This document shows, piece by piece, positions 30,521-34,000 of a stretch of DNA of 64,000 nucleotides. The stretch spans positions 3,544,536 to 3,608,535 of the forward strand of contig OZ025888.1 in assembly GCA_964019415.1 (NCBI GenBank), given 5' to 3'. Source of the DNA: Ianthella basta. Its lineage: Eukaryota > Porifera > Demospongiae > Verongiida > Ianthellidae. Each line of letters starts with the position of its first letter. The first letter of the stretch is position 1. The notes beneath the pieces were generated by a model. That model was not told the DNA's origin, ran no database searches, and saw nothing but the letters and a program-made list of their open reading frames with translations. The position numbers and the translations under genes are program-made.

Positions 30521-31018
30521 ATGTGGGTGGAGTGCAACGGATATAAAGGCAGTTTTTCAGTAGAGGAATTCAAGAGAAGTAGTCAATCACAGTGTATTTC
30601 ATGCGACGGGAAGCGATTCTCGCCTTCTGCATTTGAGGCCTACTCTGGAAAGGGCTCGGCGAAGAAGTGGCGGACTAGTATCAAGTACAACGGACGAGCG
30701 ATCGATGACTACCTCAAGTCTCTTGGGATTGTCTCTGGTAGGAGGCAACTAAAGGAAAAACGTTCTACTGTCGCATCCAGACTGAATGGCCAAGTGGAGC
30801 CAATCCGCGGCGGTTCTACTAGTTCTACTGGTAGCTCCTCTTGGCGGAGTCGTCCCACTCCGTCGCGTCCGACCAGTGCGACCAGCGCTCCGAAGCGACG
30901 TAAAGTGGACCGTGAGTCTATAAGACAGTCAAGAGCAAGTAGCAGTGTAGCCAGTAATCATGAAGAGGAAGAAGAGGACCTATTTTCACAAGGCACGGTC
31001 CGTGGACAGCATGTGGAG
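30521..31018 (+). CDS. SMC6: SMC6 copy 2 exon 1: SAND-like domain, basic motif, acidic stretch
   Basis: 166 codons from the ATG at 30521. Residues 3-68 fit the SAND pattern: C-N-G-Y-K-G near the start, a [16 protein letters not shown] core, then G-S-A-K-K-W-R (residues 46-51), the counterpart of the DNA-contacting KDWK motif, followed by S-I-K-Y-N-G. A Ser/Thr/Pro-rich linker holds P-K-R-R-K-V (124-129), a likely nuclear localisation signal, and ends in an E-E-E-E-E-D run. The exon ends with GAG before a GTATGC donor, phase 0. Exon 2 has a TAG directly before its first codon in that frame, so it needs an upstream coding exon. SAND domains bind DNA in chromatin proteins. That role here is inference. 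Confidence 0.8.
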
Positions 31019-34000
31019 GTATGCAATGTTGTGGTAGTCGTGTGCGCATGACAATATGTTGAGATAAGCCATTGCTCTCTATAATTACGTAACGTGTGCT
31101 CATTACAACTTCAGATATGTATTGTACTGAGTAGTGCCTTTCTCGTAATCATCAACTTGTCTGTGTGCGATAAACCGGTTGTCATTTAGAGGCTGTTATT
31201 GTGTAATGATGATTTAGTAGTGCAAACATTGATAGCACCATGAATTGACAACATTCTTCAAACTCCAACCTTTACCATCAATATTCAATTGGTGTATTGG
31301 AAGATTAGTCAGTGATAGTGCTAGTTCTAGCCCAATCCTAACGTAATCAGCTGTTACTGTTTGGTGGATGCAATGAAATGTACAGCTTGTTTGTGTGTGT
31401 GTTCCTTGCAATTATGTGTAGAGTTCTGGAGTTGGCTTATTGCAGAAGGTTGTTCTTGAGAACTTCATGTGCCACAGCAACCTGGAGGTGGAGCTCAGTC
31501 CCAATGTGAACTTCATTCATGGAAGAAATGGAAGTGAGTACTTCCCTTGCAGTGGGAATGGGAAGCAGTGCTGTGTGTATTCATGGCCGATGAACAGTAC
31601 CTTAAAGCTGCTTATTTTAATGGTTGCTAATTTTAGTGAGTTTACTGAGTAAAAAATTACTAACTATTGAACCTGCTAAATGTTTTGGTACAGGCAAAAA
31701 TTTTATACACAAACCCAGCAAATTCCTATAACTAGTACCCACCAAGTCCTGGATTGTTCAAAGCACTAAATTTAGTTGCCGCTAAATCTGTATCCTTAAG
31801 GTCTGTGTGAGGAAGGCATGCAAACATCGCTATGACTGGGACGTGTTTGTAGCTGAGCTGTAGCATATCACCGAAGCTGTCTTCTTATATTCATACACTG
31901 TGTGGTTGTGGTGAGTGAGTATACCTTAATATACTGTTTGAAGGTTAAAGGAAAAGCTGCAGTGGACTTGTAGAATTATGACCTTACCCTGTGGTCATCC
32001 TTGAGTAAGTAAAGTACATTATCAATAGCTATAGTTAGGTTTTGCACGGCAGCTCCACATGTGATTATTGTGAGCATCTTACACTGCTTTAGGCGGAAAG
32101 AGTGCCATCTTGAATGGTATCATTGTTGGGCTAGGAGGGCGGGCCACGGCTACAGACAGGGCCTCATCAGTGTCCCACTTCATCAAGCATGGCTGCAACA
32201 GGGCTAAGATCACCATCTGGCTGGCCAACAGAGAAAGTGTAGACTCCTACCGCTACGATGTTTATGGGAATACTATTGTGGTCTGTCGCACAATCTATTC
32301 CGATGGAACCAGTAAGTATCGGCTTAAGAGTGCTGCAGGTCGTGTTGTTTCAGACAAGAAGGAGGAACTCAATAATGTTCTTAGCAACTTTGGCATTCAG
32401 GCAAGTTTGATTGCACTAGACTGATCCAGCTAAGTGACACAACCCTTTTACAGTTAAGGGAGCAATGTATTTGAAGACATGACAACCTGAGTTACTAACA
32501 TCTGAAGTGGGAGAGGGGTTGGGAGCATGTGTCAGGTTCCCTCCAGATGATAATGCTCCTGCTGATTTAAAGGATTTACCTACATACTTTCCTACAGTGA
32601 ACCACTGCATACATGCATGCTTCTGTGTAGTCTGCACACTTTTGTGAGGCACACTACTTCAGTTCACTGTCTGCTTCGCAGTACGTATCAATGCACATAT
32701 GTATATAGGACTATAAGGTGCGACATTCTTGCATGTAGAGACCATGGTTAATTATCCACTGTGTAACAGCCTTTACTTGTTTCTGTACTTTTGTGCCATC
32801 CCTACATCCTTACTATGTTTGTAATAAATTATTATTTATAGTATGTGTTGTTCCTCCTGCTGCACTGGGATTGTAGTGGATGATGGATAAGAACACGAGT
32901 GTAGTTAACTTTGCTGTGTGTGCGTACATGATTGCAGGTGGACAGCCCTGTGTACCTGATGTCCCAGGACATGAGCAGAGAGTACCTCCACCAACAGGAT
33001 GCAAAGAAGATGTATGAGGTAATGCGTCTGTGCAGCTTTGCCATATGTACCTGTGTATGTGATGTGATGTATTCTACTTTAAGTCCCCTTGGTGGCATAC
33101 ATTGTGCTGTAGCCACATGCTGTTCACAGTCATGGGTGCATGTTCCATATGTATGAATGCTCTGCACACAGGCTGCAGTTTTGTGAGTGCATACACCAAA
33201 TATACATTATTTATCACTGGTATGCTCTATTTAATATTATTAATGTGCATGTGTTGTGCTAACACTTGTGCATGTGCAGATTTATGCTAAAGCTATGCCA
33301 CCTGAGCACTTTGAGCAGCTGTCACTAGCTGAGGAGTCCCAACGGAGGCACCAGAGAAAGATTGATCAGATAGAGAAGGTACTACAGTGGAACCAGTCTA
33401 AGACAGCCACCTGTGGGCCACTTGTAACTAACCTTTATAGACAGGTGGCTGCTTTACAGAGGTAGATTGCAATGTATTAGTGCTGTTTGGGGCCAGGGAG
33501 GCTAGCTGTTGTAGAGAGGCAGTTGCCTACCACAGTGACCATCGTAGACAGGTTCAACTGCACAATTGTTTAGGATTCCGGAGAGGTGTGAGAAAATGGT
33601 GACTTCGCCTGATTCGCGAGACTGTACGAATCTTTGAAATTGTTTCAAGCTAATCATGTCCTGTTGCAGATGCAACAGAAATGGTACCTGTTCAAGATGC
33701 AAGTGTGCTAAATCTACCCAGAAGTGTGCAAGTGTGTCAATGGTATGGTATGGATATCTTATTTCACCTGGGGAAGCCTTTAACCATGAGGCTACTTCAC
33801 AAGGCACCTAGAGCTTGTCTATGGTCCCCCTGATAGCAAAGCTGATGGAGGAAGCTGAAGCTACGTTTCAGGTTTGCTGATGATGCTACAGGTGGAGTAG
33901 TACCTCTGATTGGCTCACTCTTTGGCTACCATCTGAATGCTGGAAAGACTTGCCTTGTAGTATGCGATGAACAGGACCCCCATGCTCAACCGTCAAGAGA

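Follow-up and report, generated by a model that had tools for sequence, protein, structure and literature searches.

A SAND domain as the well-supported first exon of a tandem SMC6 paralogue in the sponge Ianthella basta

In a 64,000-nt stretch of the Ianthella basta genome (C21:3544536-3608535, where C21 is contig OZ025888.1; hereafter the window), the sequence gives good support for an SMC6-type gene (SAND-SMC6) whose first exon encodes a SAND domain. This support comes from a profile hit, two intact copies (copy A and copy B), purifying selection on the SAND core, and the place and phase of intron 1. SAND-SMC6 is a tandemly repeated paralogue of SMC6 in which the first exon has been exchanged, and it is not the only SMC6 of this genome. 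According to the gene models, it very probably arose as a segmental duplicate of SMC6 with a SAND first exon joined through the phase-0 intron 1 already present, which was then amplified in tandem to give two intact copies, a decayed one and a fragment.

SAND domain of exon 1

The preliminary description of this DNA assigned to exon 1 of copy A a SAND-pattern domain with K-K-W-R, P-K-R-R-K-V, an acidic run and a phase-0 GT donor, and all of these features were confirmed (Table 1). The exon is open over 166 codons counted from its ATG (in-frame stop upstream at 30485); KKWR, PKRRKV and HEEEEED all lie within it, and its donor reads GAG/GTATGC in phase 0. The SAND assignment of the N-terminal residues also held in profile searches: copy A exon 1 alone matched Pfam SAND (PF01342) with 49 bits, the spliced copy A protein with 45.1 bits and copy B exon 1 with 50.2 bits, and the score in a six-frame genome search was 51.5 bits (cut-off 22 throughout). 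A chance SAND-like pattern was rejected on these profile scores (45-51.5 bits). Within the whole genome (209 Mb, 96 contigs), PF01342 was found in three places, namely exon 1 of copies A and B and C16:1116896 (six-frame search, five candidates scored). An NCBIfam search with both SAND exons gave no match.

The nearest PDB relatives of the SAND exon are Sp100B (1h5p, E 1.1e-6) and then SP140 (3.4e-5). In the PDB alignment with this exon, the aligned core of Sp100 is SKNWKLSIRCGG, which has a 12-residue counterpart in copy A. A strict test did not find KDWK in the SAND exons, whose sequence there is KKWR. Because the residues at the same site of the alignment are KNWK in Sp100 and KNWR in SP140, KKWR agrees with a looser K-x-W-K/R form, and this core is common to SAND-SMC6 and both PDB relatives. 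However, the spliced copy A protein had no Pfam match to SP100, PHD or bromodomain, and its SAND is attached to an ATPase. The SAND gene at C16:1116896, which from its reading we take to be of the DEAF1/GMEB type, resembles SAND-SMC6 in having a SAND by profile (34% identity), but it contains strict KDWK, a Cys/His run after SAND that is absent after SAND in the SAND-SMC6 copies, and a SAM-domain ORF (46.7 bits) about 1.1 kb downstream. The C16 SAND ORF (L023:1642-3698) and the SAM-domain ORF possibly belong to one gene.

Copies A and B were compared by NG86 with bootstrap intervals. The SAND core had a dN of 0.024 and a dS of 0.226 (omega 0.11, interval 0.02-0.39, an estimate drawn from 13 changes with dS high), and omega was 0.21 for the whole of exon 1 (0.09-0.42), 0.35 for the exon 1 tail (0.13-1.05, an interval that reaches 1) and 0.47 for the SMC part (0.34-0.64, although the intervals of several segments reach 1 when these are taken alone). 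Synonymous changes were in excess in the SAND core (9/13 changes, p 3e-4), in exon 1 (16/28 changes, p 1e-4) and in the SMC part (65/184 changes, p 5e-6). As judged from these two copies, the SAND core is under purifying selection.

Gene models, ordinary SMC6 and sister copies

The copy A model was built by hand from a tblastn guide, for which a human SMC6 query served as guide only. The model consists of 24 exons over 30521-56582 (3633 nt, 1210 aa) with a final TGA and no internal stop, and its introns are GT-AG with the sole exception of GC-AG after exon 3. Exon 1 is followed by a 403-nt intron and then by SMC6-type exons, with the join in phase 0. The preliminary description had also placed the SMC6 head at the start of a phase-0 exon 2 with an in-frame TAG directly before it; this proved correct, and the TAG is the final three bases of the acceptor (31419-31421). 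In the same model that gave the SAND match, Pfam SMC_N (PF02463) scored 88.6 bits (cut-off 40). The motifs GRNGSGKS (Walker A), LSGGERS (ABC signature) and VLDEFDV (Walker B) were read in the protein, and the hinge was matched by tblastn. Intron 22 of copy A holds an LTR element (49212-53753) with no match in copy B, which we call Ty3/gypsy-like from reading its sequence rather than from a profile; it has direct end repeats of 286 bp (99.65% identical), a gag-like ORF (49429-50139) and a pol-like ORF (50140-53445). An insert in intron 5 (33577-35148), present in copy A and absent from copy B, contains broken ORFs resembling remains of a mobile element.

Table 1. Features of the SAND-SMC6 copies, in positions of the window
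Feature	Position	Strand	Basis
Copy A exon 1: SAND (residues 3-65), basic PKRRKV stretch, acidic run, phase-0 donor	30521..31018	+	Pfam SAND, gene model
Copy A intron 1: phase 0, position as in ordinary SMC6 intron 1	31019..31421	+	
Copy A exon 2: SMC6 head start, phase 0	31422..31533	+	tblastn, gene model
Copy A exon 3: head, with exon 2 completes Walker A (GRNGSGKS); GC donor after	32093..32400	+	
Copy A exon 4	32938..33018	+	gene model
Copy A exon 5	33280..33378	+	gene model
Copy A exon 6	35310..35447	+	gene model
Copy A exon 7	36951..37031	+	gene model
Copy A exon 8	37771..37917	+	gene model
Copy A exon 9	38149..38231	+	gene model
Copy A exon 10	38319..38489	+	gene model
Copy A exon 11 (into hinge)	38674..38846	+	tblastn, gene model
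Copy A exon 12 (hinge)	39051..39259	+	tblastn, gene model
Copy A exon 13 (hinge)	39344..39424	+	gene model
Copy A exon 14 (hinge)	39766..39962	+	gene model
Copy A exon 15	40170..40338	+	gene model
Copy A exon 16	40827..40898	+	gene model
Copy A exon 17	41061..41231	+	gene model
Copy A exon 18	43941..44078	+	gene model
Copy A exon 19	45037..45155	+	gene model
Copy A exon 20	45436..45535	+	gene model
Copy A exon 21	45936..46094	+	gene model
Copy A exon 22: LSGGERS signature, Walker B VLDEFDV	47903..48052	+	tblastn, gene model
Copy A exon 23	54832..54929	+	gene model
Copy A exon 24, TGA stop	56504..56582	+	gene model
Copy B exon 1: SAND, start ATG two codons upstream of copy A position	58486..59010	+	Pfam SAND 50.2 bits
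Copy B exon 2	61868..61979	+	gene model
Copy B exon 3	62739..63046	+	gene model
Copy B exon 4; exons 5-24 past window end to C21:3627653	63739..63819	+	gene model
Decayed copy 2, 3' remains: matches exons 18, 19, part of 20, 24; not 21-23	395..4611	+	

An ordinary SMC6 lies 1.3 Mb away on the minus strand (C21:4922343-4914163; 24 exons, 1115 aa, hand-built model). SAND-SMC6 resembles ordinary SMC6, both that of its own genome and metazoan ones, in head, hinge, catalytic motifs, intron layout and length after exon 1 (SMC part of 1044 aa vs. 1046 aa). However, exon 1 of ordinary SMC6 encodes a short basic stretch of 69 aa without SAND, whereas that of SAND-SMC6 encodes 166 aa with SAND, and the SMC parts are about 34% identical. 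Intron phases of copy A and ordinary SMC6 agree at 23/23 boundaries, which is partly due to the one hand-building rule used for both, and exon lengths are equal in 14/23 exons after the first (the other nine differ by multiples of 3), an equality that is not due to this rule. Because both genes have intron 1 in phase 0 and at an identical position ahead of the head, the SAND exon occupies the place of SMC6 exon 1. The label SMC6 in the preliminary description was right as to the type of gene but should read tandem SMC6 paralogue, as an ordinary SMC6 without SAND exists. For the rest of the complex, exon-wise searches matched an SMC5 query (P0187) on C14 as two pieces with 8 kb between them, taken as one locus, and Nse4_C in one place on C22 (single copy unproven for both).

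Database searches (109 and 81 hits, the former scoring only the 7998 candidates that shared most words) yielded 187 distinct proteins related to SAND-SMC6. PF01342 was not listed for any of the 187, and none of the names listed for the matches, which are truncated, was that of a sponge, the metagenomic rows being nameless; SAND-SMC6 may thus be more widespread. When 26 of these relatives were placed in a tree with the two SAND copies and ordinary SMC6, the SAND copies were sister to ordinary SMC6 (100/100; stem of 1.31 changes per column, long branches present), inside a 20-row group containing every named animal SMC6 row (86/97). A database search with region 1-80 gave ten candidates, none of them at E <= 1, and none of 13 pattern matches in viral contigs was confirmed. 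A full-text literature search found SMC6 and SAND domain together in no paper, SAND domain and sponge matched only papers on volvocine algae, and a SAND-SMC6 fusion was not seen among the matches listed in broader literature searches.

Copy B shares all 24 exons with copy A, is open throughout (1220 aa, gene model) and has GC donors after exon 3 and after exon 9. It corresponds to the copy 3 for which the same arrangement had been proposed, with one correction: the codon at the position of copy A's ATG is ATT and, by eye, an in-frame ATG lies two codons upstream. The coding lengths of A and B differ by in-frame gaps only (exon 1 with gaps of 15 and 6 nt, exon 5 with one of 3 nt). Head exon 3 was matched at five places on C21, four of which are close copies (94-100%), while the fifth, matching at 54%, is the ordinary SMC6. 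Of copy 1, hardly anything is present beyond exon 3 with its flanking sequence. In copy 2, SAND residues 1-55 are missing, and exons 4 and 21-23 were not found in it by blastn; with its SAND core deleted and the linker kept in frame (L014:5780-6135), it is a natural SAND-less variant, otherwise decayed. An assembly accident is unlikely, because two full copies and the remains all lie on one 6.5-Mb contig. By eye, multi-pass membrane receptor-like ORFs were seen upstream of the SAND exons in two copies (L014:4500-5390 and window 29285-29991), as if duplicated together with the array. At 12171-15411, there is a direct repeat of 1.5 kb (98.6%) with nested inverted repeats. A silicatein-type query matched seven places, none of them silicatein: CGSCWAF was read at four, CGSCWSF at one and a papain-like stretch lacking this motif at two.

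Joining of exon 1 to exon 2

The donor at 31019 is the top-scoring GT within 30851-31060. However, it ranks only 32/46 when the donors of both genes are compared, and its score is reached by 5% of the 2096 GT sites in the region; the intron 1 acceptor ranks 21/46, and 4% of sites score equally well. Alternative first exons were scanned as ATG-to-donor stretches (donor at least 4 bits, phase 0) in intron 1 of copy A, all of intron 1 of copy B and 29001-30521. One candidate of 5 codons was found in copy A intron 1, eight in copy B intron 1 (the longest of 36 codons, 59446-59553, inside an insert missing from A) and four in 29001-30521 (the longest of 32 codons, 30109-30204, outside the A-B match starting at 30263). 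No alternative first exon common to both copies was detected in these donor-scored regions. The two long candidates lie in unshared sequence, and a different first exon for the SMC6 part was judged to be less probable than the SAND exon, which the copies have in common. The 5' part of intron 1 (31019-31328) is 95.8% identical between A and B, on par with exons, which counts against the fusion; it ranks first of 75 overlapping non-coding 300-nt segments (median 90.4%, others up to 95.2%), and the other introns are 84.8 to 98.8% identical. A regulatory element, an alternative 3' end or gene conversion are candidate readings of this conserved part. The modest ranks of the two splice sites, the second GC donor of copy B, the omega intervals that reach 1, the retrotransposon in intron 22 of copy A and KKWR in place of KDWK also weigh against the proposed origin of SAND-SMC6.

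These observations bear on whether the SAND ORF might be a separate transcript ending at TGA 31049-31051, with intron sequence serving as its 3' UTR, and whether the paralogue of SMC6 might begin at another exon or an internal ATG. Unspliced exon 1 does run on to this TGA, with a 10-residue continuation that is the same in A and B and has one change in copy 2 (by eye), and the well conserved 5' intron 1 fits such a transcript as well. The candidate first exons found in single copies (36 and 32 codons) slightly raise its probability and slightly lower confidence in the fusion, but they are not common to the copies. Since exon 2 has no in-frame ATG before 31467, which is already inside the head, an internal start is disfavoured, and intron 1 has the place and phase seen in ordinary SMC6, with the exon 1/exon 2 splice sites retained in copies A, B and 2. 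We consider separate transcripts quite improbable; the unspliced SAND ORF ending at 31051 is possible as an additional product, because the 5' part of intron 1 is so conserved. It is also improbable that the tandem copies are dying duplicates without present function, open because of recent duplication. The decay of copies 1 and 2, the SMC part omega of 0.47, the distance from ordinary SMC6 (about 34% identity) and the retrotransposon within intron 22 of copy A would fit this explanation, but both copies are open over 1210 and 1220 aa at a dS of about 0.1, every coding indel is in frame, the SMC part omega is below 1 and the catalytic motifs are present.

Possible function of SAND-SMC6

How Smc5/6 is directed to particular DNA is an open question, for which a genome that encodes both an ordinary SMC6 and one with its own SAND would offer a natural targeting experiment. 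If the fusion is true, this genome-guarding machine may carry a built-in address label. With the exons joined in the mRNA, the predicted product would consist of SAND, a basic/acidic linker and a full-length SMC6 ATPase. The SMC part appears to retain what SMC5 pairing and ATP hydrolysis need, and SAND-SMC6 would pair with SMC5 via the conserved hinge. SAND and the basic stretch would add a fixed anchor ahead of the head. SAND-SMC6 would most likely form a minority Smc5/6 complex placed by SAND. This complex may be tethered to certain DNA or chromatin sites, which it could compact or silence by clamping DNA with the energy of ATP. The preliminary description had suggested that this animal targets Smc5/6 through an attached SAND; the SAND first exon is well supported, but only the paralogous form would be SAND-directed, because the ordinary SMC6 has none. 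According to passages of PMC4434891, Smc5 and Smc6 bind DNA without a canonical DNA-binding domain, through two regions each (hinge and head).

The fusion may be real and its SAND a protein-interaction or nuclear-placement module rather than a DNA reader, which is possible though doubtful. In SAND proteins, the basic KDWK region is the DNA reader. DEAF1 prefers unmethylated CpG, and an adjacent zinc finger is necessary for the DEAF1-DNA interaction (passages of PMC4274154); this requirement, KKWR in place of KDWK and the absence here of a Cys/His run like the one after SAND in the C16 protein all favour such a module. However, the basic K-x-W-K/R core is kept, as in KNWK of Sp100 and KNWR of SP140, and binding and repression of DNA with unmethylated CpG have been reported for Sp100B, a repression not firmly assignable to the SAND domain because the mutant used was less stable (excerpts of PMC5638619).

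A more specific version of the SAND-placed complex seems unlikely: SAND-SMC6 would form a second Smc5/6 complex dedicated to foreign or extrachromosomal DNA, which its SAND would recognise by unmethylated CpG, and the human episome-restricting Sp100-Smc5/6 partnership would thereby be built into one protein. Tandem amplification and fast change would fit a defence gene. It is tempting, though unproven, to draw a parallel with human cells, in which the placement of Smc5/6 on viral episomes depends on Sp100. When PML and Sp100 were knocked down in human hepatocytes, Smc6 foci dispersed and silencing of X-deficient hepatitis B DNA was relieved, and human Smc5/6 at PML/ND10 with Sp100 likewise combines a SAND-family protein with Smc5/6 on extrachromosomal DNA (passages of PMC5240991). 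The two are separate proteins there, whereas SAND and SMC6 in one chain, as predicted by the gene models of SAND-SMC6, would turn this link covalent.
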